From: Candidatus Aenigmatarchaeota archaeon
Lineage (GTDB): Archaea; Aenigmatarchaeota; Aenigmatarchaeia; GW2011-AR5
Direction: 5' to 3'
Assembly (NCBI GenBank): GCA_016198685.1
Contig: JACQID010000006.1
Coordinates: forward strand, 62,001 to 126,000
DNA: 64,000 nucleotides
In this document: positions 17,163-63,972 of the stretch, piece by piece
Position numbering within the stretch: position 1 is the first letter of the stretch
How the letters are laid out: each line of letters opens with the position of its first letter
Made by a program: the position numbers and the translations under genes
The notes under the pieces: model-generated
What the model saw: the letters and a program-made list of their open reading frames with translations, nothing else
The model's database searches: none
Told to the model about the DNA's origin: nothing

Positions 17163-18320
17163 ATGCTTGGCGCCGCGCGCGAATTATGGAAGGACGCGAG
17201 TTTCAGAAAGGTTCTGAAGGTCTTTGTTGCCGTCAAAATAATACTGATTATTGTGGCTGCAGGAGCGCAATTCATACCGCAGGAATACACGAACCGGCAG
17301 GATCGGGCAAACTTTATTATTAACGGATGGGCGCAATATGATGCAGCCGCTTACGTTGACATAGCGATGAATGGATATAATCAGGCGTTTGCTGAAGGCC
17401 GCGGCAACTACGGTTGGTTCCCGCTCTACCCATTGCTCATACTCATATTCGGCTTCCTCGGCCCCTATGAGGCAGGGTTTCTGATATCGAATGTGCTCTC
17501 GATTATAGCGATAGGGCTCATATATATGATTGTAAAAGAAGAATTCGGACCTAGCATAGCATATGATACTGTACTGCTGATGTCTTTCTTTCCGACTGCA
17601 TATTTCCTCAATGCGGTGTACACCGAGTCTCTTTTCCTTCTTGAAACCGCTGCATTCTTCTGGTTCATGGGCAAGGGCCGTTATCTTGAAGGAAGTCTCG
17701 CAGGGTTCTTTGCGGCACTGACAAGAACGCAAGGCGCGCTGCTTCTGCTGCCTGCTATCATTATATACTATATGCAGCGGATGAAAAAAGACGGCAAGCT
17801 TGGTTTCGATGCGCTATGGCTGCTGCTGATACCGGCAGGCACGGCAGTTTTCATGGGATATCAGTTCCTTGTAACTGGAAATGCCCTTGCGCAGTTCCAG
17901 ACGCATTCGGAATTCCAGCGCCATCTTTCGCTGCCGACAGACGCGATAATGAACGGCATCAGCGGCCTCATGCAAGGCATTGCAGCATCTGACATTTCAG
18001 GCACGTTCTACCATTCATTCAATCTGTTCATCCTTGTGTTTTTTGCGGGCCTGTTATGGATATGTTATAAAAAATTGAAGCCCGAATACACGGTTTATTT
18101 TGCAGTTTCGCTGATATTGCCGCTTCTCTCGGCGCGTCTTGAGGCCATAAGCAGGTTTTATCTGATGATATTCCCGGCTTTCATAGCGTTATCGCTGGTT
18201 TCAAAGGAAAGGCGGCCATATCTCATGATGCTTTACGGAGTCTTTGCCGTGTTGTTGATACTTTTCACCATAAGGCATGCCAATGAAGACATATTTCTTT
18301 CGGCTATAGCGCCTTTTTAA
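17163..18320 (+). CDS. PIG-V-like membrane glycosyltransferase (GT-C fold)
   Basis: 385 residues with about ten TM segments. Near residue 60 the extracytoplasmic loop has W-A-Q-Y-D-A-A-A-Y-V-D-I-A and then W-F-P-L-Y-P-L-L, the catalytic-loop pattern of PIG-V / GPI-mannosyltransferase II relatives, which use Dol-P-Man. The ATG at 17163 is preferred over a GTG at 17154 because AGGTG lies 7 nt upstream, and it follows the GT2 stop directly. The GT2 product may supply its donor (inference). Confidence 0.8.
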   Translation: MLGAARELWKDASFRKVLKVFVAVKIILIIVAAGAQFIPQEYTNRQDRANFIINGWAQYDAAAYVDIAMNGYNQAFAEGRGNYGWFPLYPLLILIFGFLGPYEAGFLISNVLSIIAIGLIYMIVKEEFGPSIAYDTVLLMSFFPTAYFLNAVYTESLFLLETAAFFWFMGKGRYLEGSLAGFFAALTRTQGALLLLPAIIIYYMQRMKKDGKLGFDALWLLLIPAGTAVFMGYQFLVTGNALAQFQTHSEFQRHLSLPTDAIMNGISGLMQGIAASDISGTFYHSFNLFILVFFAGLLWICYKKLKPEYTVYFAVSLILPLLSARLEAISRFYLMIFPAFIALSLVSKERRPYLMMLYGVFAVLLILFTIRHANEDIFLSAIAPF

Positions 18321-18349
18321 GTTTTGAGGAAAAGGGACTTATAGGTATT

Positions 18350-19741
18350 ATGGAATTCAATGATAAATGGCCTGTTTTTCTGGCCAGTTTAATAATATTT
18401 GCGGATTTTCTGCTTTACTACGAAGGACAACTGCTTGTTCTGGCAGGGTTAACCGCAATTGCATCTTTAGCATTGCTTTATCGCATTGACGACACAAAAA
18501 AATCTTTTGCAAAGTACTGGCCGATTGCCGCGCTTGTTTTTATCTTCCTTTTTGGAATACATGCAAGAATAGACGGTTATGACTTCCAGTATCTGAGAAA
18601 CATAGACTCATACGCTTTCATGCGCGAGATGCAGATGATAGTGGACAACGGAATACTCCAAACGACCGATCCGCTCTTCTTCCGTTCGCCTTATGAAGAA
18701 ACGCTCACCGCGCCTTTGGATTTCAATCCGCTCTGGGTATTGAGAGCTCCGTACCAGTATCTGGGCGCATATTCATTCATGCTTGTCCGGTCTTTCATGC
18801 CGATGCTTGAATTATGGCAATACCTGATAGTCTTCCCGCCGGTTTTGGCAAGCCTCGCAGCTATACCAATGTATTTCATAGGCAGGGAAATGTACGACAG
18901 AAGAGCAGGCATAATGGCAGCACTGTTGTACATATTTGACATATCCAACTTCCAGCGTTCTTTGGGCGGCGACCCCGATACTGATGCGATAGTAATACTG
19001 ATGCCGGCCCTTGTGATGGCATTCTATCTTTTGATGTACAAGCGGATTGATGCCGGCGGCTTTGACAAGTTCGCCGTCTTGTTTGCAGCGCTGGGCGGAG
19101 TTTGTCTTGCGCTCTTCCATAATGTTTGGGCGGGATACTGGTATACCGTATGGATAATAGCAGGATTCCTTGTCATAAAATTCATAGTAAGCGCAGTGCG
19201 CCTTGGCAGCTTCCAAAAGATGCTTCAGAGCGCAAAGCCGCAACTGCTGGGTTTTGGATTGTTCTTCATGGCCTACTTGATAGTCAACCTGCAGTTCTTC
19301 GGAGCAGATGCCATAATCTCAACTGTTTACGGGCCATTTGAGTATAGCGGATTGAAAAATGAAGAGGGTCGCGCCTTCCCGAATGTTTATGTCTCTGTCG
19401 CTGAACTTCAGCAGGCCGGTGACGTAGTTTCCATAATAAAAAGAGTCACTGGCGTTGATGGTATAGCGTTATGGTTCTCGCCTTTCATGCTTACGCTTTA
19501 TGCGCTCTTTGGGCTCGTTATGCTCGCAGCTTCCGGCCACAAGAGACATCTGGACGGGCTGATAATACTTTTCCTGTGGTTTATTGGCCCCATGCTCGCA
19601 ACACTTGTTGCCATAAGATTCACAATACTTTTCTCGGCTCCGATGTCCATAGGCACGGCAATATTATTTTCCATTGCATACGGCTATGTACTGGGAGAAT
19701 TTGCCAAGCCCGAGCCTGCCAAAACGGAGGGAACTGCATGA
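18350..19741 (+). CDS. Oligosaccharyltransferase STT3/AglB, N-terminal membrane half
   Basis: 463 residues, almost all transmembrane. It carries the catalytic-base motifs of STT3: D86 in N-I-D-S-Y (first external loop), G-G-D-P-D-T-D at 206-212 (second D-x-D-type motif), and S-V-A-E at 349-352, matching the SVSE/TIxE motif. It stops after a TM helix and a short charged tail, before the soluble domain that normally completes STT3. Its TGA overlaps the ATG of the next gene (ATGA) and GGAGG lies 7 nt before that ATG, so the two halves are co-translated. Confidence 0.9.
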   Translation: MEFNDKWPVFLASLIIFADFLLYYEGQLLVLAGLTAIASLALLYRIDDTKKSFAKYWPIAALVFIFLFGIHARIDGYDFQYLRNIDSYAFMREMQMIVDNGILQTTDPLFFRSPYEETLTAPLDFNPLWVLRAPYQYLGAYSFMLVRSFMPMLELWQYLIVFPPVLASLAAIPMYFIGREMYDRRAGIMAALLYIFDISNFQRSLGGDPDTDAIVILMPALVMAFYLLMYKRIDAGGFDKFAVLFAALGGVCLALFHNVWAGYWYTVWIIAGFLVIKFIVSAVRLGSFQKMLQSAKPQLLGFGLFFMAYLIVNLQFFGADAIISTVYGPFEYSGLKNEEGRAFPNVYVSVAELQQAGDVVSIIKRVTGVDGIALWFSPFMLTLYALFGLVMLAASGHKRHLDGLIILFLWFIGPMLATLVAIRFTILFSAPMSIGTAILFSIAYGYVLGEFAKPEPAKTEGTA

Positions 19742-20895
19742 AGGAAGATCACAAAAAAGCTGCTCAAGTTATCGTGAAAGCAACTGCGCCTTTTGCCATA
19801 TGCTTGATAATTGTAGTCGTGATGCGGTATTTCAATCTTGACATGTTTCAGTGGCTATTGCTCGGGATTGCCATAGCCGGCGTCAGCGCGGGCCTCATGT
19901 CCCTAAAGCTGATGGACAGGAAAGTTGCGGGAGCAACAGGGGTATTTTTCATTTCAGTATCGCTCATATTCTTGTTTTACATCTACCCTTCCGGCTACAT
20001 CGCGCAGAGTGGAACTGTTCTTAATGATAATTGGTTTGAGGCGCTGAAGTGGATAAACGAGAACACACCTGAATGCTCGACAGTGGCTACTTATTGGGAT
20101 CCGGGCCATTTCATACGAGCGATAGGCAACAGGACAGTCGTCTTTGACGGCGGCTCGCAAAATCATCTATTCCAGATAAATGAAAGTGGCCCGGACGGAT
20201 TGACAATAGAGAATTATGATAATGGCATCACGCATCTTGTGCAGCACAAAAACGGCATAAGGACCACGGCAAGAATACAGGATATATCGACTACTCTAAT
20301 GACAAGTAATGAATCGCTTGCCGTAGATATACTGAAGGATTACAGGAAATCCGGCTGCGACGAAATCTATTATATAGCCTCTGCCGATCTCATGAGCAAA
20401 TCGGCGTGGTGGACGTATTTCGCGACATGGGCTCCAAACAAGAACGGCAACTGCAGGGTAGGAGGCATTACAGAGCCTAAAGGAGATTGTTACAGTTACA
20501 GTCTTCTTTCGCTTTCCGGAGCCACGCCTAACGGCGAATCCATAATCTATACTTATAGCGCCGGCCAGAATCAGGCGTTCCTGCTGAACTATGATCCGCA
20601 ACAAGACAGATTGCAGGCATATCTTTCCGAAAACAACAATTTATTCAGAATAAAACAAACCTTCTACTTTACCAAAGACGGCAGCGGAGTCCTCTATACA
20701 GTGCCGGATGCAGAGGTTCCGGGAACCGTGTGGGCTGATACCACGAGAAACATTATTATCTACATGCCCCCGCAAATCGAGAACGCGGTATATACAAAAC
20801 TCATGCTTTACAACGGAGTGGGACTTGAGAAGTTTGAATTCGTCAAGGATTGGGGAAGCGAAATCAAGCTTTACAAGGTAAAAATAGAAGAATAG
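19738..20895 (+). CDS. Oligosaccharyltransferase STT3/AglB, C-terminal half with acceptor-sequon domain
   Basis: 385 residues: about three TM segments (17-85), then a soluble domain. Y-W-D-P-G-H at 119-124 corresponds to the W-W-D-Y-G motif that reads the sequon, with Y and P replacing W and Y. D-L-M-S-K-S-A-W-W at 217-225 is in the place of the DK-type motif. The protein has no GT catalytic acids, which are in the preceding gene. A strong Shine-Dalgarno (GGAGG, 19727-19731) fixes the ATG at 19738. An open frame runs further upstream in this phase but lies inside the N-half gene. Confidence 0.9.
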   Translation: MKEDHKKAAQVIVKATAPFAICLIIVVVMRYFNLDMFQWLLLGIAIAGVSAGLMSLKLMDRKVAGATGVFFISVSLIFLFYIYPSGYIAQSGTVLNDNWFEALKWINENTPECSTVATYWDPGHFIRAIGNRTVVFDGGSQNHLFQINESGPDGLTIENYDNGITHLVQHKNGIRTTARIQDISTTLMTSNESLAVDILKDYRKSGCDEIYYIASADLMSKSAWWTYFATWAPNKNGNCRVGGITEPKGDCYSYSLLSLSGATPNGESIIYTYSAGQNQAFLLNYDPQQDRLQAYLSENNNLFRIKQTFYFTKDGSGVLYTVPDAEVPGTVWADTTRNIIIYMPPQIENAVYTKLMLYNGVGLEKFEFVKDWGSEIKLYKVKIEE

Positions 20896-23009: not shown

Positions 23010-24535
23010 ACACGGGCAAATACGCAGAAGCTGTAGGCAGGGGCACGTTCCTCATATTCATATTTTCCATGGCCGCCGCCGCGATAGGATACGGCTTCCG
23101 GATATTCCTTTCACGATCGCTCACGGTGGACGAGTTTGGTCTTTTTTACAGCGTTGTTGCATTCATTGCGACGATTGGAGTTTTCCGCGAACTTGGCCTT
23201 GCAACTTCGCTTGTAAAATACATATCTGAACTGAAATCAAAACAGGATTTTGCAAGAATAAAATCTTCGATAATCATGGTATTCCTTGCGCAGACTATAC
23301 TTAGCGTGATCATATTTACGCCGTTGATATTCCTCTCGGACATTCTGGCCTCGCAATATTTTGGCATGCCGCAAGCCTCTGCAGTCCTGTTCTTCCTTCT
23401 GATAGAGGCCATCGTGAACATGGGCATATATTCTGCCGTTTTCCAAGGCATGCAAAAATTCAGGATATTCGGCCTTATAGAAATATTCAGGGTATCTATA
23501 TTATTTGCATTCGCGATTCCTCTGGTTTCCAACGGGGCAGCGGGCATAGCCCTTGCGCAGCTTCTGACGACAGTCGCCATGAACATCATTTTTGTCGGCA
23601 TCGCCCTCAAGGAAATGCCGTTCCTTGGACCGGCGAAATTCGTCCTTGACACGACGCTTCTGAAGAATATATTCAAATTCGGACTGACCCTTTGGCTTGG
23701 AAATATAATTGTCATGCTTGTGAGCAGGCTTGACGTGATATTCATCACCTATTTCCGCGTCTTGAAAGAAGTTGCATGGTACAATGTTTCGCTTCCTACT
23801 GCTATGCTGCTCACGACGTTTTCCGCGGCAGTAAATAACACTCTTTATCCTACCGTTGCAGAACTCTGGTCCAAGGGAAGGAAGGAAGACGTGGCAAAGG
23901 GAATGGAATCTGTCATCAAATTCTTTTTTGTCCTCATGCTCCCGCCGGCTCTTCTATTTCTTGCCTATCCGGATATCATAATACGCATACTCTTCGGTGA
24001 ATCATATCTTCCGGCGGCATTGTCACTTCAAGTGTTGTCAATCGGCATGTTATTCTCTTCCATATCCTCAATATTTCTCGGAGTAATCAACGGAATAGGC
24101 AGTCCCGGCATGAATGCCAAAGTCGTTTCCGTAGTCGCTGGGGCAAACTTTGTGTTGAACCTGCTGCTCGTGCCTTTATACGGTCTTGACGGAGCCGCAG
24201 TGGCAACTGCAATTTCATTTGGCATAATGTTCCTCATGACGTTCATATTTTTGAGAAACAGAATCAAGATGAGCATACGTTTCACGGACGTAGGAAGGAT
24301 ATTCCTTGGCGGGCTGCTCGCGTTGCTGGCAGTTGCGGCAGCAAAGCATGCGCTTGTAATCGAGGATGCGGTCATAGAGTCAGCGGTAACATTCATAATT
24401 GCCATGGCTTTCTATGTCGTTTATCTTGTCATGGCAAGGGTAATCGTAAAGAGCGATATTCAGCTTCTTGAAACGTCCGGCTTCCGCCTGCCTGCCGCAG
24501 CAAAGAAATTACTGCTTCGCATATTGAAAGATTAG
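22997..24535 (+). CDS. Wzx-type polysaccharide flippase (MOP/MATE superfamily)
   Basis: About 512 residues with 12-14 TM segments. The N-terminal F-L-S-R-S-L-T-V-D-E-F-G-L-F segment and R-E-L-G-L-A-T-S-L-V-K-Y are typical of Wzx/RfbX O-unit flippases, which move lipid-linked glycans across the membrane. There is no ATG near the N-terminus. TTG at 22997 is preferred because GAGGAG sits 7 nt upstream; another in-frame TTG lies at 22973. It overlaps the preceding GT2 gene by 13 nt. Co-location with GTs and STT3 supports lipid-linked oligosaccharide export. Confidence 0.88.
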   Translation: MEGIDTGKYAEAVGRGTFLIFIFSMAAAAIGYGFRIFLSRSLTVDEFGLFYSVVAFIATIGVFRELGLATSLVKYISELKSKQDFARIKSSIIMVFLAQTILSVIIFTPLIFLSDILASQYFGMPQASAVLFFLLIEAIVNMGIYSAVFQGMQKFRIFGLIEIFRVSILFAFAIPLVSNGAAGIALAQLLTTVAMNIIFVGIALKEMPFLGPAKFVLDTTLLKNIFKFGLTLWLGNIIVMLVSRLDVIFITYFRVLKEVAWYNVSLPTAMLLTTFSAAVNNTLYPTVAELWSKGRKEDVAKGMESVIKFFFVLMLPPALLFLAYPDIIIRILFGESYLPAALSLQVLSIGMLFSSISSIFLGVINGIGSPGMNAKVVSVVAGANFVLNLLLVPLYGLDGAAVATAISFGIMFLMTFIFLRNRIKMSIRFTDVGRIFLGGLLALLAVAAAKHALVIEDAVIESAVTFIIAMAFYVVYLVMARVIVKSDIQLLETSGFRLPAAAKKLLLRILKD

Positions 24536-25506
24536 TGCATCTTTTTTACGATGACATCAAATTTTTCCATTACCTGCTCCGGCGTTATGGTCTTTATGCA
24601 TCTCATGTCGCCGTAATGGCAGTAATTGTCATTGCATCTTGTGTTGCAGAATTGCCTTCCGCCCATGCAGGTTGCTTTGGAGTTGTGAGGATTCCATTCC
24701 GGCAATGAAGGGCCATTGAGGGCGATTTGCGGCTTGGCCAAAGCCGCTGCCACATGCATGGGCCCGCCGTTTATGGAAATAAACACATCACACTGATTTA
24801 TCGCGCATGTGAGGCCATCCATGCCGGTTTTGCCGACAAGATTGACTACGTCGCCCGCTTCCCGTTCGATGTATTGTGCCCTGAGAGCGTTATCCTTGCC
24901 GCCTAAAAGAAGAATAGTTGATGGATATTTTTTCTTGATCATTTTTATCAAAGAAACCCAGCCTTCGTCGTTCCATGCCCTGCAAAGATTGTCATCCTTG
25001 CCTGCGTTTATTCCGACTACTATGCCTCGGGTTTTAATTTTCTCGCACTTCTCGGGAACGGGCATTTCCATTTTCCCATCGCTTTTTATGCCAAGCTTTT
25101 CTAATACCCGAGCTTCGAGTTCAACTGCATCTCCGCCCGTCTCAACAGCTACGTTATAGAGAGACGATGCTGCGTTTCTTGGGTTCCTGTAGCTGGCAGT
25201 TAAAGACGCTCCGAGGAGTAGTGATAAAACAGAAGACATGAAAGTATTGGGAAATCCATCTATAACAATGTCGAGTTTCTGGGACCGAATCTTAGCAAGA
25301 TTCCGCAAGCCGGAGGCGCTGAAGTTTATTATGACGTCCTCGTCTATGTAAGGCGAGGATTTGAGAAGTTGTACGCCGCTGCCACTGTAATTATGCACAA
25401 GATATATCTTGCTGTCCGGCCATTTTTTCTTGAGACTGCGCAGCATGGGAATTCCGGTAAGAATATCGCCCATGCTTGAGCCTTTGATCACGGCTATCTT
25501 TTTCAT
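24532..25506 (-). CDS. GT9 (heptosyltransferase-like) glycosyltransferase with C-terminal Cys cluster
   Basis: 324 residues, GT-B fold. K-G-S-S-M-G-D-I-L at the N-terminus and I-S-I-N-G-G-P-M-H-V-A-A-A at about 245-257 are the ADP-heptose:LPS heptosyltransferase signatures. The C-terminus has four cysteines (C-N-T-R-C ... C-H-Y-G-D-M-R-C), which may be structural. Archaea lack LPS, so the acceptor is likely a surface glycan. It overlaps the upstream GT9 gene by 4 nt in a two-gene operon and overlaps the flippase 3' end by 4 nt. Confidence 0.85.
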   Translation of the reverse strand: MKKIAVIKGSSMGDILTGIPMLRSLKKKWPDSKIYLVHNYSGSGVQLLKSSPYIDEDVIINFSASGLRNLAKIRSQKLDIVIDGFPNTFMSSVLSLLLGASLTASYRNPRNAASSLYNVAVETGGDAVELEARVLEKLGIKSDGKMEMPVPEKCEKIKTRGIVVGINAGKDDNLCRAWNDEGWVSLIKMIKKKYPSTILLLGGKDNALRAQYIEREAGDVVNLVGKTGMDGLTCAINQCDVFISINGGPMHVAAALAKPQIALNGPSLPEWNPHNSKATCMGGRQFCNTRCNDNYCHYGDMRCIKTITPEQVMEKFDVIVKKMH

Positions 25507-26504
25507 AGGATCGCTTCAAGCTTATTCATAACTTCTTCAGGGATTATCTCTGATGTGAGAGGATGATTAGAGCAGTATTTTCCGTAAAGTTCGCATTTAG
25601 TGCAATCACTGCCTCTCCACAGCCATGCCGATTTGCCGTTTAGCGGAGCCTTTCTTCTTGGATCGGTAGGCCCGAATATTGATACAACCGGTATGCCCAC
25701 GGCACTCGCGATATGCATCAAGCCTGAATCGCCCGTTACAATCGCATCACACACGCTCAAGATTGCTGCAGCCTCTTTTATTGTCGTCTCGCCTGCAAGG
25801 TTCTGGACATTCCTGCCGGCAATGTTGCCCGCCTTGCCAAGGCATACAATCTTCCAGTCCTTGGAGCTTGCCATCTCCGCCAGTCTCGCAAAGTTTTCAA
25901 ATGGCCAGTTTCTTGGAGATGCATCCTGGCCGGGATTGCCTCCACCGAGTGCAAATGCAAGAAGTTTTCCGGTTCCGGCTCTTCTTCTTACCTGTCCTGC
26001 CAGTTTTTTGTCTTCTTGTGAAATAGCAATTCTCATATCTGTGCTGCAGTTTTCTTTTGTGAAATAGGCTAGAAGGTCAATATAATATTGGATTTCATGT
26101 TTTACCCTTTCGTATATCACAGTCTTTGTAAGGAATATGCCTTCCCAGCCTCTCGCGAATCCGATTCTTTCCGGTATACCGCAAGCACGGGCAAAGAAAC
26201 CTGCAATCCAGGATTTGTCCATGACAAAGCACATATCAAATTCTTCTTCTATTATGCGGGCGCGAAGTTTTTTGAAAAGGGAGATTTTTTTGAGAAATGA
26301 GCCTCGAAACAACGCATCCTGGTCGAATGCTATTATGCGATCAACATCCGGATTATCCTCCAGTATTCCGGCACTCCATTTGCCCGTGATATAGCAGATT
26401 TCAGCTCCCGGAAAGGTCCTTCTCAGGCACGCAAGAAAAGGCGTAGTCATAAGCACATCGCCTATAGCGCCTGATTTTATGACCGCTATTTTATTGTAAG
26501 CCAT
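25503..26504 (-). CDS. GT9 (heptosyltransferase-like) glycosyltransferase
   Basis: 333 residues from the ATG at 26504, giving the MAYNKIAVIKSGAIGDVL start of GT9; longer in-frame starts would run into the divergent RHH gene. V-T-G-D-S-G-L-M-H-I-A-S-A and F-G-P-T-D-P-R-R-K-A-P in the C-terminal domain are the donor-site signature. A C-T-K-C-E-L-Y-G-K-Y-C cluster follows. First gene of a GT9 pair, divergent from the RHH-nucleotidyltransferase gene, whose palindromic promoter region may control both. Confidence 0.87.
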   Translation of the reverse strand: MAYNKIAVIKSGAIGDVLMTTPFLACLRRTFPGAEICYITGKWSAGILEDNPDVDRIIAFDQDALFRGSFLKKISLFKKLRARIIEEEFDMCFVMDKSWIAGFFARACGIPERIGFARGWEGIFLTKTVIYERVKHEIQYYIDLLAYFTKENCSTDMRIAISQEDKKLAGQVRRRAGTGKLLAFALGGGNPGQDASPRNWPFENFARLAEMASSKDWKIVCLGKAGNIAGRNVQNLAGETTIKEAAAILSVCDAIVTGDSGLMHIASAVGIPVVSIFGPTDPRRKAPLNGKSAWLWRGSDCTKCELYGKYCSNHPLTSEIIPEEVMNKLEAIL

Positions 26505-26532
26505 TATCACACGAACATAATCAATACGAAAA

Positions 26533-26566
26533 CAATTTAAGTATGAAATATGCATACTTCGTATGC
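26533..26566 (+). promoter_or_regulatory. TATA element with overlapping palindromes, putative RHH operator
   Basis: The TATA-like CAATTTAAGT at 26533-26542 lies about 25 nt before the ATG at 26563. GTATG (26541-26545) pairs with CATAC (26553-26557), and GCATAC (26552-26557) pairs with GTATGC (26561-26566) around TTC. The three half-sites run from the TATA element through the start codon of a gene encoding an RHH DNA-binding protein. Binding there would block transcription. Confidence 0.6.
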
Positions 26567-27330
26567 GCAAGCAAAAAATAGCCATTTCTTTGAGCAAAGA
26601 GCTCTTGGAGAATATAGACCGCAGTGTTGATGGAAAAAGTGTTCGAAGCAGGAGCCAGTATATAGAAACCATGATCAGAAAAGGTATGGAATCGCAGAGT
26701 GCGCAAATGGCCGTAATAATGCTAAGGAAAGAGCATCACTCTGTTGCCCTATCACGATTCAAGAATGGTACTCTGCTTTCTTCACAGGCCGATTTTCTAT
26801 CCAGACACGGCGTATCGGAAATACTCATAGTCACCCAGAAAGGGCCTCAGCTGGCAGAGCTTGAAGCCTATGCGCAGCGTATGGAACACCCGGCAAAAAC
26901 AATAGTCACGGATAAACCCGGAAACGCGGATGCGCTGAAATTAGTAAGGGATCGCATGGATTCAAATTTTGTTGTTCTTTCCGGTGATGTATATAACGAC
27001 TTCGATCTGAAGAAAATGATGGAGAAGCATGCCCAGAAAGGCGTAATGATGACGATGGCGCTCATGAGCAGGGCATCGCCTTCGAAATACGGAAACGTGA
27101 TACTTGATGGCGATATGGTTGTCAGCTTTCAGGAGAAACCGTCATCGGCGGTTTCGCATCTTGTTAACGCAGGCCTTTACGTTTTCAGCCCGGCTGTGTT
27201 CAGTGCCATGGAAGGATGCCATTTCTTGGAGAAGGAACTTTTCCCCAAGCTGGCTTCCATGAGGCAGCTTACAGGCTACTTCACTATGGGCGACTATTAC
27301 CACGCCCAAGAAGCTTCGCCGCGGCCCTGA
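26563..27330 (+). CDS. Ribbon-helix-helix domain fused to a degenerate sugar-nucleotidyltransferase domain
   Basis: 255 residues. Residues 3-45 form an RHH (CopG/Arc type) DNA-binding domain: strand K-I-A-I-S-L-S, helix K-E-L-L-E-N-I, turn, helix S-R-S-Q-Y-I-E-T-M-I. From about 48 the chain follows the nucleotidyltransferase Rossmann fold: H-G-V-S-E-I-L-I-V-T, V-V-L-S-G-D-V-Y-N-D-F-D, F-Q-E-K-P, N-A-G-L-Y-V-F-S-P. The catalytic G-G-x-G-T-R-L-R-P-L-T loop is absent (R-K-E-H-H-S-V-A-L-S instead), so catalysis is unlikely and ligand sensing is more plausible (inference). It is convergent with, and overlaps by 47 nt, the next GT9 gene. Confidence 0.8.
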   Translation: MRKQKIAISLSKELLENIDRSVDGKSVRSRSQYIETMIRKGMESQSAQMAVIMLRKEHHSVALSRFKNGTLLSSQADFLSRHGVSEILIVTQKGPQLAELEAYAQRMEHPAKTIVTDKPGNADALKLVRDRMDSNFVVLSGDVYNDFDLKKMMEKHAQKGVMMTMALMSRASPSKYGNVILDGDMVVSFQEKPSSAVSHLVNAGLYVFSPAVFSAMEGCHFLEKELFPKLASMRQLTGYFTMGDYYHAQEASPRP

Positions 27331-28456
27331 CAACTTCCTGAACGGTTATTTTGTTCACGTCATATTCGGGCTTATATTTTTCGGGGAATCGCGCTTCGAA
27401 CGGTTTTATATATGGTTCTTCAGGACCTTTGTAAAGGCCAATGCAGTCTCGTCCATATGGCCCGTAAAGTTCAGGTTTATTGGGGCCAAACAATCCTATT
27501 GTAGGCACTTTCATGGCAGATGCAAGATGCATCGGGCCGGAATCGTTTGCCACAAAGAGCGACATTTTTTCCATGCATGCGGCAAGAGTTTCAAGGTCGA
27601 TTTTGCCAGCAAGATTAATGGGATTGCTCTTCATAAGCTTTTCGACTTTTGATGCGGCTTGGGTGTCCAGTCTTCCCCCTATTATGGCAATTGTGGCGTT
27701 GTGCTTTGATGCGAGCGTATCGGCGAGCTTTGCAAAATTATTTTCATTCCATCTGCGTATCTTAGACGAAGAAGAAGATCCTGCATGGATGCCGATAATT
27801 CTGCCTTTAGGAAGAATATTATTTGCACTGGATTTGGCTTTAGCCGAAACTTTAAGCTTGACGAGCGCCGTCGGGTCATGCGCACGCACAAGGAACCGTG
27901 CAAGATTCATGAAATTATGAACAGCATGCATTTTTTGAGGTCTTGCACTTTCTGTGTAAAGAATCTTCCTGCTGGAAAAGCCTATGCGTTTTGAGGCTCT
28001 GGTAAGGGCTGAAAACGAGGCGCTCATGTAAGCGAAAGGCTCGAAATCAACGCAGACTGAGAATCCTTTTGCAAGAGTGACCATAGTCTTTATGATGTTT
28101 ATAGGATTTCCATAATCAAGTACGATAATCCGGTCAGCGATACCGGAAAGCTCGAATACTGCAGCGTTGTTTTTGGTACACAGAACCGTTATCTCATGGT
28201 CATGCATGCCTTTGCGAATTGCTGCGAGCGCCGGCAGCATATCCAAAGTGTCGCCAAGTGCCCAGAATTTTATTGCAAGTATGCGCTTTTTGCGGCTCTT
28301 TGGAAGTAACGTAAATATCCATGACACGCCATAAAATAGCCGTCCAATCGTACCGTCCAGAAGCCGGAGGAAACCGCCCTGCATAGGAATATCCTTGCGC
28401 CGCCAGAGCTTTAAATCCCTGCCGAGGGGGTTTATCGCAGGACGATATTTGTACAT
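27284..28456 (-). CDS. GT9 (heptosyltransferase-like) glycosyltransferase with N-terminal extension
   Basis: 390 residues, about 50 more than its GT9 neighbours. The extension includes a hydrophobic patch (F-Y-G-V-S-W-I-F-T-L-L) that may contact the membrane. Signature motifs: K-F-W-A-L-G-D-T-L-D near residue 65, A-G-S-S-S-S-S-K-I-R-R-W near 225, and V-A-N-D-S-G-P-M-H-L-A-S-A near 305. An internal ATG at 28384 is a possible alternative start. It overlaps the RHH-nucleotidyltransferase gene at the 3' end. Confidence 0.85.
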   Translation of the reverse strand: MYKYRPAINPLGRDLKLWRRKDIPMQGGFLRLLDGTIGRLFYGVSWIFTLLPKSRKKRILAIKFWALGDTLDMLPALAAIRKGMHDHEITVLCTKNNAAVFELSGIADRIIVLDYGNPINIIKTMVTLAKGFSVCVDFEPFAYMSASFSALTRASKRIGFSSRKILYTESARPQKMHAVHNFMNLARFLVRAHDPTALVKLKVSAKAKSSANNILPKGRIIGIHAGSSSSSKIRRWNENNFAKLADTLASKHNATIAIIGGRLDTQAASKVEKLMKSNPINLAGKIDLETLAACMEKMSLFVANDSGPMHLASAMKVPTIGLFGPNKPELYGPYGRDCIGLYKGPEEPYIKPFEARFPEKYKPEYDVNKITVQEVVRAAAKLLGRGNSRP

Positions 28457-34860: not shown

Positions 34861-35834
34861 TCAAACCACCATCTGTTTTGTCTGCACCACGCAATCATTT
34901 CCCTAATGCCTTCCTCAAGAGAAGTCGTTGCTTCCCAGCCGAGCATGGCCTTCGCCTTGCCTGCGTCAGGCACACGCCTGGGAATGTCTTCATAGATGCT
35001 TCCATAAAGCTTTCTCGTATCAACATACTCTACGCCAAGATCTTCCCGGCCCGCGGCCTTGAGCATCAGTTGAGCCGTCTCATTGAGAGTTCGCTCTTTC
35101 ATGCTGCCGATATTGAACGCATGTCCTTCTGCTTTCTTGGATTCCGCTGCGAGCAAAGTTCCTTCAATGGCGTCCTTTACATATGTGAAACAGCGTGTCG
35201 GAGTTCCTCCGTCATATATGAGAGGTCTTTCATTTCGCAATATCCTGCGCAGACATGCGGGTATCATGAATATCGGCGCCTGCCTTGGGCCGTAGACGTT
35301 AAAATAGCGGACTATTGTCACAGGCAATCCATGCATGCGGTTCAATGCAAATAGCATATGCTCACTCATGCTCTTGCTGGTGCTGTATGTCCACCTGTCA
35401 ACTTTGGTGCTGCCTACCACACGGTCATCGTCCTCTTTCCACGGCACTTTTGGATTCTTTCCAAACACTTCACTCGTACTCGTGTATATGACCTTCGTTC
35501 CATGCTTCATTGCAGCTTCAGCCACGTTTTTTGTGCCCAATATATTGACGCTTACAGTGCCTAAAGGATCCTCACAGTAATTTTTCACCCCGACTACAGC
35601 GGCAAGATGGTAGACGACATCAATATCCTCTGTTATAACATCCTTCATGCCATTGCCTGTTATGTCTCCTTTGACAAAATGGAATCTTTCGTTTGTCTTC
35701 AGATGCTGTATATTCCGCAATTTTTCCAGTTCTGCGTTGTCAAAAACCGTTACCTCATGGCCTCTTTGCAGAAGCTCTTCAGTCAAATGACTGCCTATGA
35801 AACCGCCCCCTCCGGTGATTACAAGATTAGCCAT
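34857..35834 (-). CDS. NAD-dependent sugar-nucleotide epimerase/dehydratase (extended SDR)
   Basis: 325 residues. T-G-G-G-G-F-I-G-S-H, S-T-S-E-V-F-G and Y-S-T-S-K are the SDR motifs. T-S-E in place of the T-D-E of RmlB resembles epimerases, UDP-glucuronate decarboxylases and GDP-mannose dehydratases. In an operon with a nucleotide-sugar dehydrogenase and the FdtA/FdtB pair it could provide the 4-keto intermediate or decarboxylate a uronic acid; the sequence does not decide. It overlaps both neighbours by 4-8 nt. Confidence 0.85.
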   Translation of the reverse strand: MANLVITGGGGFIGSHLTEELLQRGHEVTVFDNAELEKLRNIQHLKTNERFHFVKGDITGNGMKDVITEDIDVVYHLAAVVGVKNYCEDPLGTVSVNILGTKNVAEAAMKHGTKVIYTSTSEVFGKNPKVPWKEDDDRVVGSTKVDRWTYSTSKSMSEHMLFALNRMHGLPVTIVRYFNVYGPRQAPIFMIPACLRRILRNERPLIYDGGTPTRCFTYVKDAIEGTLLAAESKKAEGHAFNIGSMKERTLNETAQLMLKAAGREDLGVEYVDTRKLYGSIYEDIPRRVPDAGKAKAMLGWEATTSLEEGIREMIAWCRQNRWWFE

Positions 35835-37218
35835 GTATCCTGCCTCCTTGAGGTTTGCCTATTCCTGCATATCCGAACCCATTCTCCGCCGCCTTGACCG
35901 GGCCAAATATAATTCTCCCCTCCACAATCGAACAGCCTTCAGCTGCAATGCCGTGCAGTTTTTTGAGATCGAGCGACTTGAATTGAGGATGATCGGCGCC
36001 TATCAATATACAGTCCGCATTTTCTATTGCGCTTTCGGGGGTTTTTGCGACATTCCCTGCAATCATCCGGGCATCGTTTTCAGTAACCCAAGGGTCATAT
36101 GCAGTCACGATACAATTTTCAGCCTCCAGCAGTTTCACTATTTCTTTCATCGGCGTATTGCGCACGTCTCCAGTCCCGCCCTTGAAAGCGAGACCGAGAA
36201 CTGCGATTCTGCTGCCTTTGATTTTTTTGTTCGCATATGCAAGGCAGCTTTTGACAAGATCTACGGTATGGGCAGGCATGGCTTCATTTACTTCCCGTGA
36301 CGTCTTCGGAGTCTTGAGATTCAGCCCTGCCTTTTTGCCAAGATGATACACAAACCATGGGTCTTTAGTAAGGCAGCTGCCGCCAACGCCGCATCCCGGA
36401 TATAATATATTGACCATGCTCCTGCCTTTGGGCAGGCTATTTGCCGCGTCTATTACTTCTGAGGCATCCAGCCCCATCCTTTCGCATAGCATTGCAAGCT
36501 CATTGGCCAGTGCGATATTCGCGTCTATCCAGAGGTTATCGGCAAGCTTGGCCATCTCTGCGGCTTTTGCCGAAGAGACTTTTGTTGTGACAAACCCGTT
36601 TGACCGCCAGAATGATTCGGCTTTCTTGCCGCTTTCTGCGTCTATGCCGCCTATAATTATAGGAAGCTTTTTCAGGTCTTGGATTGCAGACCCTTCAGCC
36701 AGGCGCTCCGGGCAAAACGCAAGTCCGAAGTCCTTTCCTGCCTTGAGATTGGATTTCTTTTCTAACATTATCTTGACAAGCTCTTCGGTCGTGCCGGGAG
36801 TAACAGTGCTTTTGAGTATGATCATAGCGCCTTTTCCGACCAACGAACCTAATTTTTCAGAAACTTCATTTATGTATTCAAGGTTAGGCTCGTAATTTTT
36901 GCCTAGCGGAGTGCCGACAGTCACAAGAATTACATCGGCATCGGCGACTTCCGATATTTGTGCCGTAGCCCGTATGTTTCCTTTCTTAAGGGCATCCGAG
37001 ATGAGTCCTTCGACTTCAGGCTCGTTTATCGGCGACTTTCCGTTATTTACAGCGTTTATTATTGCAGGATTGACATCAATTGCAATCACCTTGTTATTTC
37101 TGGCAAGTAGAGAGCCGATGCTGGCGCCCACATAGCCAAAGCCTATGACAGCAACTACCGTCTTCCCCGTTTTTGTCTGTTCCATTATCTGTTCTTCATC
37201 GAGAGAAAATATTTTCAT
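35827..37218 (-). CDS. Nucleotide-sugar dehydrogenase (UDP-glucose/UDP-ManNAc 6-dehydrogenase family)
   Basis: 463 residues. NAD motif G-F-G-Y-V-G at about 26-31, catalytic cysteine in G-G-S-C-L-T-K-D-P near residue 277, and the C-terminal sugar-binding domain with L-A-F-K-G-G-T-G-D-V-R. A-F-C-P-E-R-L-A-E-G is closest to the WecC/TviB (UDP-ManNAc or GlcNAc) branch. It oxidises C6 to a uronic acid in two NAD-dependent steps. GGTGATAT upstream of the ATG is a good ribosome-binding site. Confidence 0.92.
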   Translation of the reverse strand: MKIFSLDEEQIMEQTKTGKTVVAVIGFGYVGASIGSLLARNNKVIAIDVNPAIINAVNNGKSPINEPEVEGLISDALKKGNIRATAQISEVADADVILVTVGTPLGKNYEPNLEYINEVSEKLGSLVGKGAMIILKSTVTPGTTEELVKIMLEKKSNLKAGKDFGLAFCPERLAEGSAIQDLKKLPIIIGGIDAESGKKAESFWRSNGFVTTKVSSAKAAEMAKLADNLWIDANIALANELAMLCERMGLDASEVIDAANSLPKGRSMVNILYPGCGVGGSCLTKDPWFVYHLGKKAGLNLKTPKTSREVNEAMPAHTVDLVKSCLAYANKKIKGSRIAVLGLAFKGGTGDVRNTPMKEIVKLLEAENCIVTAYDPWVTENDARMIAGNVAKTPESAIENADCILIGADHPQFKSLDLKKLHGIAAEGCSIVEGRIIFGPVKAAENGFGYAGIGKPQGGRIHG

Positions 37219-37226
37219 TATATCAC

Positions 37227-38288
37227 CTAAACGCTTATGTCAGAATCTTCCCCTATCATGAGCCTCATCGTATCCCCGTTCCTTATTTTCGAATTCTTCC
37301 CCAAAAGGCTGCCTGATATTTTTTTAGCTCCTATGTCAATGAAGCAACCTGACATGAGTATGGAAGATTCCACAGTTCCGCTGATTATTTCGGATAAATC
37401 ACCGATTGATGTGTAAGGTCCGATGGAAGCGTTTGCTATAGTGCAATTGTCTCCTATTTTGACAGGCCCTATTATCTTCGCCCCCTTCCTCACTACTGTT
37501 CCTTTCCCGATTTCAACCGCGCCGTGAATAGACGCGCCTTCTTCGACGGTTCCTGCATTATATGGTTTAAGCGCCGAAAGTATCATTTCATTGGCATGAA
37601 GGACATCTTCGCCTGTTCCTGCGTCATCCCACCATCCGCTTATCGTATGGTGCAGTACTTTTCTGCCGGACGATAGCAAGCCCTGTATGGCGTGCGTTAT
37701 TTCAAGCTCATTTCTCGCCGAAGGCGACAAGACATCTATTTGCCTCATAATAGATGGCCGGAATATGTACACGCCTACAATCACCGTATCGCTTTTGGGT
37801 TTGACAGGTTTCTCTTCTACGCTTACTATGTTATTATCCTTTATCTCGGCAACCCCGAATCTTTCCGGCGTCCTAGACTTTGCAAGGAGAAGGCTCGCAT
37901 CGGCGTCTGACGCAAAAAACTCCTTCACGAATTTCCCTATGCCGCCGCTAATGATATTATCTCCAAGATACATTACAAAAGAGTCCTGTCCGAGGAAATC
38001 GCGTGCCGTCCATACCGCGTGAGCGAGGCCTCTCGGCGCATCCTGCTCTATATAAGTTATTTTTGCGTTCCATTTACTTCCGTCTCCGCACGCGTCTTTG
38101 ATAGCGTTTATTCTCTCGGCGGAATAGCCAACTATTATGCCTATTTCTATTACTCCGGAAGCTACAAGATCCTCTATCGCATAATGAATGACAGGCTTGT
38201 TGGCTATAGGGATTAACTGCTTTGGGCCTGCATGGGTCAGAGGGCGGAGGCGTTTGCCCAACCCGCCGGCCAGAATGATGCCCTTCAT
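37227..38288 (-). CDS. rmlA: Glucose-1-phosphate thymidylyltransferase, long form
   Basis: 353 residues. The catalytic loop is intact: G-G-L-G-K-R-L-R-P-L at residues 8-17 and P-K-Q-L-I-P-I-A-N-K-P. G-L-A-H-A-V-W and Y-L-G-D-N-I complete the RmlA pattern. A C-terminal left-handed beta-helix (about 240-345) distinguishes the long, archaeal/actinobacterial form. It supplies dTDP-glucose (or a related sugar nucleotide) to the downstream operon. The 4-nt overlap with the RHH-nucleotidyltransferase gene makes it the second gene of the operon. Confidence 0.9.
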   Translation of the reverse strand: MKGIILAGGLGKRLRPLTHAGPKQLIPIANKPVIHYAIEDLVASGVIEIGIIVGYSAERINAIKDACGDGSKWNAKITYIEQDAPRGLAHAVWTARDFLGQDSFVMYLGDNIISGGIGKFVKEFFASDADASLLLAKSRTPERFGVAEIKDNNIVSVEEKPVKPKSDTVIVGVYIFRPSIMRQIDVLSPSARNELEITHAIQGLLSSGRKVLHHTISGWWDDAGTGEDVLHANEMILSALKPYNAGTVEEGASIHGAVEIGKGTVVRKGAKIIGPVKIGDNCTIANASIGPYTSIGDLSEIISGTVESSILMSGCFIDIGAKKISGSLLGKNSKIRNGDTMRLMIGEDSDISV

Positions 38289-39097
38289 TTCACCAGCCTC
38301 CTTGCGGCTTCTGCATCCTGCTTTGTATGGATGTTGACGAATTTTCCGGATAGTATTGCGCCGCCCAAAACGCCCTTTTTGCTGAGTTCAGGAAACAAAT
38401 CCTTGTGAAGCGAGAATTTCCTGTCGGGTATCATTGTAAATATTTCAGGCTCCGCAAAAGCTATCATCGTGGAAACAAGGGTAGTCTTCTCAACAGAGGG
38501 CGTATCCCAGTAATTTATAATGTCGTTCCCGTCCAATTCGACCACAGAACTGCGGTTGCCGTCATGCCTTATGCCTCCATAAATGGCAAGCGTGGCAGGA
38601 TAGCCGCTGCGCCTGTGGACATTTTCCAGTTTTCTTAAATCAAAATCAAAATAGTGGTCGCATGGAACGAAAAGGAATGTACCCCTCACTTTCGCGCTCG
38701 CGAGTTTCAAAGTATTCGCGCTATCGCCCCTTGCCTTTTCCTCGATATATGCAACAGAACATCCCAGCGACTCGCCGTTCGCCAGTATCCCGAAGCATCT
38801 TGTCACAACTTCTTTGGTGCCTATTATAATTATGTTTCTGTAGCTCTGGCCCACGACTTTTTCCACGATGCGCTGAATCAAGGTTCTGCCTCCTATGTCC
38901 ATGAAGGGCCTGTATTCGCCGTCCGTAATCAGATAATCGCCCCCGCCTGCAAGAATAACACAGTACCTGCCCGCATCCATGTATTCCTGAAGAATTGATT
39001 CTATGGCGCCTGATCGTGTGTCAGAGAGCGCTTCCGCGTATGCGTCCACGCTTTTTATCATCTTGTCCGGAAGGGAGAGCGAGATTCTTTTGCGCAT
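38285..39097 (-). CDS. Ribbon-helix-helix domain fused to a variant sugar-nucleotidyltransferase domain
   Basis: 270 residues. Residues 2-42 are an RHH domain (strand R-I-S-L-S-L-P, helix K-M-I-K-S-V-D-A-Y, helix S-G-A-I-E-S-I-L). From 45 a nucleotidyltransferase fold begins: C-V-I-L-A-G-G-G-D-Y-L, E-Y-R-P-F-M-D-I-G-G-R-T-L-I, then V-P-C-D-H-Y-F-D-F-D. The R-L-R-P-L-T part of the loop and the PKP lysine are changed, so activity is doubtful. The ATG at 39097 aligns with its paralogue (both MRK...); a GTG at 39106 is an alternative. It heads the rmlA operon and sits just below three phased promoter repeats. Confidence 0.82.
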   Translation of the reverse strand: MRKRISLSLPDKMIKSVDAYAEALSDTRSGAIESILQEYMDAGRYCVILAGGGDYLITDGEYRPFMDIGGRTLIQRIVEKVVGQSYRNIIIIGTKEVVTRCFGILANGESLGCSVAYIEEKARGDSANTLKLASAKVRGTFLFVPCDHYFDFDLRKLENVHRRSGYPATLAIYGGIRHDGNRSSVVELDGNDIINYWDTPSVEKTTLVSTMIAFAEPEIFTMIPDRKFSLHKDLFPELSKKGVLGGAILSGKFVNIHTKQDAEAARRLVK

Positions 39098-39105
39098 AGT
39101 AATCA

Positions 39106-39132
39106 CGTAATAAAACGTAATACTATCGTAAT
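39106..39132 (-). promoter_or_regulatory. Three helically phased repeats over the RHH-nucleotidyltransferase promoter
   Basis: CGTAAT occurs at 39106-39111, 39116-39121 and 39127-39132 (ATTACG on the transcribed strand), with spacings of 10 and 11 nt, about one helical turn. They lie between a TATA element (39131-39139) and the ATG at 39097. Tandem half-sites one turn apart are typical RHH operators, and the gene encodes an RHH protein. Confidence 0.65.
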
Positions 39133-39142
39133 ATATTTAAGC

Positions 39143-62074: not shown

Positions 62075-63154
62075 TTAATGCCTAACGCGAAGAACGGAAT
62101 CGTACAGCTTTTCAAGTTTACCGGCCTGAACTTTCTCGTTGAATTCCCTTTTGATTTTGCGGTTTGCCGCCCTGCCGAAAGCTATCCTTTTTTTGGCATC
62201 AAGAGCAAGCTCTTTCATGCGATCTGCTAATTTTTCTATATCCTTCTCAGGGACCAGAAAGCCCGTTTTTCCGTCATCTATTATTTCTGGAATATCGCTG
62301 TGAAGCGTGGATATGCAAGGAAGGGAAAGAGACGAGGCTTCCATCAGGGTCACAGGCGTTCCTTCCATATCGCCATTCGATGCTCTGATACTCGGAAGGA
62401 CAAAAACGTCTGCTGAAAGCATCTCGTTTCTTACAATTGTTCTTGGCTCTAGAGACGAAAAATTATCAATGAATTTAATGTCCGGATAGCCAGCTGCGAT
62501 CGTTTTGAGCCTTTTTTCCAAGGGTCCATTTCCGACAATCCTTAATTCACAATGTATATTTTTCCTGACTTCAAGAAACGCTTTTATAACATATTCAAGG
62601 CCTTTCTTTTCCACAAATCTTGCAACAGACAGGAAAAATATCCTGGATTTCTTTTTTCGTTGAATATATTTTTCGTTTTTAACGCCGAGATGATGAATTT
62701 TTATTTTATCTGGAGGGCAACCGAGGGAAATAAGGCGATCTTTCATGTGGTTGCCAAGAGCTAAAAAAAGCTCACCTTGCTTAAACAACTCGTTGTATCC
62801 ATTGGGGCTTTTTTCCGGAAACCCATAGCAATCATAGCCATAGAATGACGTAATCATGGGTATTGCCGCCTTCTTTTTTATGGCTACAATAGCGCGGCCT
62901 GCCATACCAAAATGCGAATGTATGATTTTTATCCCTTCATGCTCTATTGCGCTTTGGAAGGTTTTTGAAAGGCCAAAGACCTTGAGTCCAATTCTCTCGG
63001 CCGTTGAAAGTGAATATATTTTTGCCTCAGGGAAGTGTTTAGTGGATTGGGCGGCAAGAATGATCGGGCTGTAACGTTTTGCGTTCTTCACTTGCGAATA
63101 GATGAAAGTCTCGGATGGGTTCAGCCATTTGTGAACAAAATGTGCGACTTTCAA
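62075..63154 (-). CDS. GT4 glycosyltransferase
   Basis: 359 residues, GT-B fold, close to the WcaL/AmsK colanic-acid group: N-P-S-E-T-F-I-Y near residue 12, H-S-H-F-G near 78, S-V-A-R-F-V-E-K-K-G-L-E near 188, and D-M-E-G-T-P-V-T-L-M-E-A near 268. It overlaps the upstream nucleotidyltransferase gene by 4 nt, so both are in one operon and are probably functionally linked. Confidence 0.87.
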   Translation of the reverse strand: MKVAHFVHKWLNPSETFIYSQVKNAKRYSPIILAAQSTKHFPEAKIYSLSTAERIGLKVFGLSKTFQSAIEHEGIKIIHSHFGMAGRAIVAIKKKAAIPMITSFYGYDCYGFPEKSPNGYNELFKQGELFLALGNHMKDRLISLGCPPDKIKIHHLGVKNEKYIQRKKKSRIFFLSVARFVEKKGLEYVIKAFLEVRKNIHCELRIVGNGPLEKRLKTIAAGYPDIKFIDNFSSLEPRTIVRNEMLSADVFVLPSIRASNGDMEGTPVTLMEASSLSLPCISTLHSDIPEIIDDGKTGFLVPEKDIEKLADRMKELALDAKKRIAFGRAANRKIKREFNEKVQAGKLEKLYDSVLRVRH

Positions 63155-63972
63155 CTTTTACCACCCTTATCAGTCATAGGCGGTGGTATTATCGTTCCTT
63201 GCAGTGCCGTCTTTTCAGCCTTCAGGTATGATTCCATATCCCCTATGTCTATCCAGAACGGAAGCTTGGTAACGAAAGCCGCAAGCTTCTTAGTTTTTAC
63301 CAAAGCCGGAAATACTGATCTTTCCACTTTCTCCTTGCCGCGTGGCAGAATATCATAAACATCGGAGAGTTCCAAGACATAATAACCCGCATTTGCAAGT
63401 TTCGATGCGGAGGATGTGGGTTTTTCAACAAAGCTTTTCACAAGGTCGCATCCGGCCGCCTTTTCGATCTCAGCAATGCCGAATCTTGATATGTCTTCTT
63501 TAGGAACATCGAAAAGCGCAACAGTAGCCGATATCCCTAACTTCTTCCTGCAAGCATCGTGATATTTCAGCATGCCTGCAATGTCGATGTCTGTTATATT
63601 ATCTCCATATGCAACAATTATCTTCTGGCCTTGCAAATGGGTTTTTTCTATTATATGTTTAAGATCGCCGCCTGTCTCTCTTTGCGGGGTCTTGATAGTT
63701 TTTATTAATCCCGCAAATTCCTTTATGTGCTTCACATAATTTTCTATGCTTTTTGCATGGCTCTCGGCCACGTTTTTTTCATCGATGTCCTCTTCCTCGG
63801 ATCCATCCGCTATGCCAAGCAAGATTTCATCGATACCAGGGCATTTTGAGATGTTAGTCACGACCCAGTTCAGCACAGGAACCCCGTGCACAGGTATAAG
63901 AGGCTTGGGTATGCCGTAAGTGAGAGGTCTTAGTCTCGTGCCTTTTCCTGCGGCGAGTATGATTGCCTTCAT
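63151..63972 (-). CDS. Sugar nucleotidyltransferase (NDP-sugar pyrophosphorylase)
   Basis: 273 residues. G-K-G-T-R-L-R-P-L-T at residues 9-18 and P-K-P-L-I-P-V are intact, as are Y-G-D-N-I near 125 and F-V-E-K-P near 188. It activates a hexose-1-phosphate; the nucleotide is not clear from sequence, and the long, charged insert near residues 55-80 is not typical of RmlA. GGTGA 4-5 nt before the ATG is the ribosome-binding site and overlaps the stop of a further upstream gene. Confidence 0.85.
   Translation of the reverse strand: MKAIILAAGKGTRLRPLTYGIPKPLIPVHGVPVLNWVVTNISKCPGIDEILLGIADGSEEEDIDEKNVAESHAKSIENYVKHIKEFAGLIKTIKTPQRETGGDLKHIIEKTHLQGQKIIVAYGDNITDIDIAGMLKYHDACRKKLGISATVALFDVPKEDISRFGIAEIEKAAGCDLVKSFVEKPTSSASKLANAGYYVLELSDVYDILPRGKEKVERSVFPALVKTKKLAAFVTKLPFWIDIGDMESYLKAEKTALQGTIIPPPMTDKGGKS

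Follow-up and report, generated by a model that had tools for sequence, protein, structure and literature searches.

A probable one-component repressor combining an RHH domain with a degenerate sugar-nucleotidyltransferase domain in Aenigmatarchaeota

Knowledge of how uncultivated DPANN archaea such as these regulate their genes is, to our knowledge, very scarce. Enzyme-derived sensors as such are a known kind: in ROK-family repressors and in NadR a ligand sensor of enzymatic origin is fused to a DNA-binding domain, as is proposed here for P0001, an RHH-nucleotidyltransferase (NTase) fusion. In those proteins the DNA-binding domain is an HTH, not a ribbon-helix-helix (RHH), and the sensors have sugar-kinase or NMN-adenylyltransferase folds, not that of a sugar-1-phosphate nucleotidyltransferase. 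NikR has an N-terminal RHH of the same type as P0001, followed by an oligomeric, metal-binding ACT-like sensor domain, and its operator in E. coli is GTATGA-N16-TCATAC (PMC7055735). In PutA, an autogenous repressor, an RHH is fused before a metabolic enzyme (PMC5293562). GMPPA is a dead NTase that binds the product sugar nucleotide GDP-mannose (PMC11228364). The minimal nucleotidyltransferases (PMC6393860) are a group distinct from the RHH-NTase fusions.

The window, which is the whole stretch of 64,000 nucleotides that was analysed, is part of a 935-kb Aenigmatarchaeota genome (G000). P0001 and its domains were placed in it as follows.

26563..27330, plus strand: P0001, predicted RHH-NTase fusion regulator, 255 aa, coordinates including the stop (ORF, profile and AF2 model)
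26563..26700, plus strand: RHH domain, residues 1-46 (NikR model, family profile, helices in the AF2 model)
26701..27327, plus strand: degenerate sugar-nucleotidyltransferase domain, residues 47-255 (PF00483, fold comparison, purifying selection)

The single P0001 sequence matched Pfam RHH_1 weakly (E=0.09), and its residues 4-49 matched the NCBIfam NikR model (E=9.6e-5). A family RHH profile was built from the first 45 residues of 15 members; its best solved match was E. coli NikR (1q5v, E=1.6e-6), followed by P. horikoshii NikR, antitoxin Rv0298 and CopG (1.7e-3 for CopG). RHH_1 itself was matched in 10 of 22 fusion family members. In the AF2 model of P0001, helices 12-22 and 27-45 precede a full NTase fold, and the RHH strand, which forms between subunits, is of low confidence in this monomer model. 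P0001 has the strand-helix-helix of about 45 residues, with RHH profile, that defines the MetJ/Arc/CopG/NikR type, and its DNA-facing strand residues were assigned as K5, A7 and S9 by alignment with NikR. A toxin-antitoxin reading with P0001 as a HicB-type antitoxin was rejected: residues 2-36 matched the RHH end of the HicB model at E=0.03 only, the HicB core domain is absent, and P0001 is adjoined by GT9 genes and by no toxin.

The remainder of the protein scored 76.4 bits against PF00483 (cut-off 21.2). The AlphaFold2 model, calculated from an alignment of window proteins and viral-contig NTases, had a mean pLDDT of 88.9 and a pTM of 0.81. GDP-mannose pyrophosphorylases were its nearest solved folds, with VTC1 at Z 26.4 (rmsd 2.0 Å over 204 residues), a chain of the human GMPPB complex at Z 25.3 and HddC at Z 23.0, and the domain belongs to the PF00483 family by both profile and fold. 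The preliminary description had claimed an N-terminal RHH domain joined to an NTase fold and had proposed structure prediction as a check; both domains were recovered, and the ORF, its coordinates and its motifs agreed with that account. It had also noted the lost G-G-x-G-T-R-L-R-P-L-T loop beside retained landmarks, and the loss proved to go further. A deletion has removed the GGxGTRxRP loop of P0001 (VIMLRKEHHSV...ALSRF), there is no PK lysine, and the position of the second metal-binding aspartate is taken by His247; D142 (the first metal aspartate), E191-K192-P193 and N202-A203-G204 are retained. PF00483 enzymes such as RmlA, HddC and archaeal GlmU-like proteins share the fold and the D142, EKP and NAG landmarks, but have the loop, the lysine and the second aspartate and lack the RHH. 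D142 is the sole remnant in P0001 of the set that marks an active enzyme (loop, PK lysine, two metal aspartates), and, judged by these motifs, its NTase domain is catalytically dead and no longer catalyses. Between P0001 and a 96%-identical orthologue, dN was 0.019 and dS 0.44 overall (dN/dS ~0.04); for the NTase part alone the values were 0.019 and 0.48. The low ratio points to purifying selection on the degenerate domain and rules out a decaying pseudogene. Loss of the triphosphate-handling loop with the sugar/metal side kept is what a product or sugar-phosphate sensor would be expected to show.

P0001 would work in the manner of NikR (RHH plus sensor), PutA (RHH plus enzyme) and GMPPA (product-binding dead NTase), but it was filed under none of them, because a defining feature of each fails. 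Residues 47-255 have an NTase fold instead of the ACT-like sensor of NikR. Behind the RHH stands a PF00483-type domain only, and not the proline dehydrogenase and P5C dehydrogenase of PutA, which are unrelated and catalytically active, whereas P0001 and most other fusions have lost the active site. GMPPA and the NTase-like gamma and epsilon subunits of eIF2B share with P0001 a dead NTase fold put to regulatory use, and match it in sequence and fold; unlike P0001, they act by protein contacts, carry a beta-helix domain and have no DNA-binding domain. P0001 ends at residue 255, directly after the NTase domain, without the C-terminal beta-helix of GMPPA.

Fusions of this architecture were found in about 65 of 156 Aenigmatarchaeota genomes, and P0001, for which the preliminary description had proposed an architecture search, is no singleton. 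Sixty-two fusion proteins were extracted, 61 of which entered the tree and the active-site tally. The full active-site set (loop residues, PK lysine, both metal aspartates, EKP lysine) was present in 19 of the 61, and intact relatives are encoded in L099 and L100, for example; 40 were without it and 2 were intermediate, while the first metal aspartate (D1) was invariant in 62/62. The family is phylum-wide and spans members that look like intact enzymes as well as dead ones; with partly degraded members between them, this single architecture would show the conversion of an enzyme to a sensor in stages. P0001 clades with members from G001, G006 and G007 (support 100/100), the deeper placement of this clade being uncertain because the loop columns are lost. 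Nucleotide-sugar dehydrogenase was the commonest neighbour type (17 family loci), its gene often lying divergent from or beside the fusion. Viral contigs scanned with the fusion profile yielded no relative, and an exact-peptide-word scan of genome contigs returned the near-identical orthologue as sole match.

In one lineage (L092, L095, L096, L122, L123) the gene divergent from the fusion is archaeal pilin-like (MTNNELKGISPVIATILMVMITVGLVAFSYSWFMG...) and takes the place of a sugar-nucleotide gene; a clear operator was not seen near the fusion. In one genus (L079, L080, L082, L083, L088) the fusion is intact and its divergent neighbours are NrdR-like and ribonucleotide-reductase-like genes, the intervening DNA containing GTAGTATAACGTACTAC / GTAGCATATTATGCTAC palindromes.

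The surroundings of P0001, and those of P0002, a second fusion in the window that is distantly related to it, contained the following features.

24532..25506, minus strand: second GT9 gene, overlapping the first GT9 gene by its start (PF01075, E=3.4e-21)
25503..26504, minus strand: divergent GT9 (heptosyltransferase-family) glycosyltransferase (PF01075, E=4.2e-32)
26539..26559, no strand: putative operator AAGTATG-N7-CATACTT, by a TTTAAG TATA-like element, within the 58 bp that separate the divergent genes (26505-26562)
27284..28456, minus strand: convergent GT9 gene, with a 47-bp overlap with the end of P0001 (PF01075, E=2.1e-31)
35827..37218, minus strand: nucleotide-sugar dehydrogenase of the P0002 operon (homologues in 17 family loci)
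37227..38288, minus strand: intact RmlA-like nucleotidyltransferase with hexapeptide repeats, downstream of P0002 (PF00483, E=7.3e-51; Hexapep)
38285..39097, minus strand: P0002, second degenerate RHH-NTase fusion, first gene of a sugar-nucleotide operon
39106..39133, no strand: putative operator, three tandem TATTACG repeats upstream of P0002

The divergent GT9 gene likely starts at 26504, as read from the sequence, and is then shorter than its listed ORF. A GT9 gene likewise lies downstream of the P0001 orthologues in L067 and L068. The operon headed by P0002 continues with RmlA, dehydrogenase, FdtA-like and DegT-like genes.

Each of four genomes had a single AGTATG-N7-CATACT, which in every case lay immediately upstream of the P0001 gene or its orthologue; the reversed control pattern gave zero matches in the same four genomes. 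The P0001 palindrome alone arises in 4.8% of shuffles and is by itself unremarkable; that four genomes conserve it is remarkable, and chance was rejected as its origin. Its placement beside a TATA-like element, between divergent starts, suggests repression. When the genome was scanned loosely for the 21-bp operator (≤3 mismatches), 66 matches were obtained against 43 for the control, so a wider regulon is unreadable from it and the exact site alone counts.

All 6-mers upstream of the 61 family genes were compared with those in 637 other upstream regions of the same loci, and half-sites were compared with strand residues. GTATGA/TCATAC was the top word of this unbiased test (29/61 against 27/637, p=2.4e-19), and a CATAC half-site accompanied a middle strand residue T or A in 24 of 27 cases against 8 of 34 for S (p=4e-7), both p-values overstating independence because the regions and rows are related by descent. 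CATAC direct repeats with 10-bp spacing occurred in 16 of the 61 family regions and in 4 of the 637 others. TATTAC/GTAATA went with R-S strand residues (13/19, against 7/42 in the others) and TACTAC with K-S (7/15 against 5/46). The corresponding strand residues of P0002 are R-S-S. The half-site class tracks the middle DNA-facing residue of the RHH strand, and this link, which includes identity with the NikR half-site, offers a direct test of RHH recognition rules. The half-sites of NikR are 16 bp apart, whereas those of the fusion family are adjacent, either inverted with a 7-bp spacer or as direct repeats every 10 bp; the site at P0001's own gene is inverted, that at the heptose operon a direct repeat. 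Among the upstream regions of fusions, those of clade f11 and some other clades had no clear operator.

The heptose operon is cut by the end of the window.

63151..63972, minus strand: NTase, last gene of the heptose operon, which starts past the window (G000:C1:129279)
C1:129321-129337 (G000), just past the window: tandem site TCATACCTTTTCATACC at the ADP-heptose operon promoter

The tandem site was present at the heptose operon in G000, G001 and G007. In sister genomes a fusion gene lies at exactly this position, with heptose activation genes (HddA-like kinase, GmhA, GmhB-NTase) on its divergent side and, after it, the same gene types as in G000 (~200 aa, ~275 aa and a hydrolase resembling the metallo-beta-lactamase fold). 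In G000, G001 and G007, then, the regulator adjoins glycosyltransferase genes and the heptose-operon site has stayed. In the GTDB family of the window, the tandem site CATACNTNTTCATAC was found in 15 of 16 fusion-bearing genomes and in 0 of 3 without a fusion; phylum-wide, 20 of 65 genomes with a fusion had it against 2 of 91 without, a co-occurrence that arises partly because many sites stand at the fusion's own gene.

The best-known cases of heptose activation come from Gram-negative bacteria. Locus L142 (G000:C1:125151-129279) holds a complete-looking ADP-heptose activation set in an archaeon, with a heptose-7-P kinase fused to GmhA and an adenylyltransferase, and at least four GT9 genes beside it.

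The reading that we favour, as probable though well short of certain, is that P0001 is a one-component RHH repressor that regulates its own gene and, through its NTase-derived domain, senses an activated sugar, probably of the heptose pathway. In favour of this reading, the RHH is closest to that of NikR and the NikR half-site is the top upstream word. Against it weigh the frequency of such a palindrome in shuffles, the unlike geometry of the P0001 and heptose-operon sites, the many counted tandem sites that stand at the fusion gene, the relatedness of the upstream regions and the clades that lack a clear operator. The proposal is supported, at the level of sequence and comparison, by architecture and fold, loss of catalytic motifs, selection, conserved operators, operator-regulator co-occurrence and pathway linkage; DNA binding, the sign of regulation, ligand identity and allostery are what we infer. 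RHH dimers, tethered by oligomers of the NTase-derived domain, would bind paired GTATGA/TCATAC half-sites; the conserved repeats are present, and a dimer on them is predicted. P0001 would thereby occupy the TATA elements that serve its own gene and the divergent GT9 gene, as well as the tandem site before the operon for ADP-heptose activation, and in each case act as a repressor. The dead pocket, with its sugar/metal side kept, most likely would bind an activated heptose or its sugar-1-phosphate, and ligand supply would tune the affinity of P0001 for DNA. The preliminary description had suggested a regulator that senses through a dead-enzyme domain and switches glycan genes. That idea is supported by the operators, strand co-variation, co-occurrence, sugar-nucleotide linkage and purifying selection; for P0001, heptose activation is the likely pathway, and not that of the dTDP- or CDP-sugars it had named.

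That the NTase domain serves solely as an oligomerisation scaffold, and that P0001 represses its own gene by its RHH without sensing anything through the dead domain, is rather unlikely. This reading would explain why the catalytic loop and second metal site are gone while the RHH and operators are conserved, but not why D142, EKP and NAG are kept in P0001, why D1 is invariant in 62/62, or why the domain is under purifying selection with sugar-nucleotide genes as neighbours. We consider it improbable that P0001 mainly tunes an active NTase paralogue by protein contact, as GMPPA does with GMPPB, with DNA binding secondary. The GMPPA/GMPPB family is the closest fold, intact NTases are encoded nearby, and GMPPA is a non-catalytic inhibitor that binds GDP-mannose (PMC11228364); against this stand the strict conservation of RHH and operators and the missing left-handed beta-helix domain of GMPPA.

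The tandem CATAC sites might belong to another RHH protein, P0001 regulating solely itself and the GT9 gene. The geometry of the half-sites does differ at the P0001 promoter, and the genome encodes further small RHH proteins; such proteins also occur in genomes without the tandem site, though, no NikR-like protein was seen among the RHH_1 matches of G000, P0002 has TATTAC-type sites, and the fusion gene of the sister genomes lies exactly at the heptose-operon site, all of which makes this reading very improbable. Least credible of all is an enzyme that doubles as autogenous repressor in the manner of PutA or NadR, with P0001 still active by an unusual mechanism: PutA is a precedent for an RHH with an active enzyme (PMC5293562), and 19 of 61 members have the full active-site set, but P0001 has neither the loop nor the PK lysine nor the second metal aspartate.

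Tandem CATAC sites also stand before genes named here by sequence reading: PEP synthase and phosphomevalonate kinase-like genes in G000 and G001 (in G000, L164, C3:58928), FBP aldolase/phosphatase in G005, phosphoglycerate kinase in G012 and RpiB in G006. The loci with such sites at gluconeogenic or pentose-phosphate-like genes are L164, L165, L152, L159 and L160, hinting at a wider regulon. We put forward only tentatively, and with some doubt, that across Aenigmatarchaeota an RHH-fused sugar NTase lost catalysis in separate lineages and became a metabolite sensor, and that in some lineages it also controls central carbon genes, which would make it a regulator of carbon-to-glycan supply with a readable RHH-operator code.

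The earlier statement that no described regulator of this architecture was known to its author agreed with our literature search, in which no description of an RHH-sugar NTase fusion was found among the open-access papers searched; one may exist elsewhere. Within what was checked, novelty lies in the sensor type, in its combination with an RHH and in the series from intact to dead members. Operators, a regulon and a class of ligand are all predicted for the P0001 family, which makes it concrete as a regulator family.

Elsewhere in the window, at 18287-20895, the oligosaccharyltransferase AglB/STT3 is apparently split into two overlapping ORFs. The membrane part is 18287-19741; the soluble part lies within 19471-20895, starts near MKEDHKK and has a YWDPG motif. 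A similar second AglB/STT3 ORF is present in a near-identical relative (L066).
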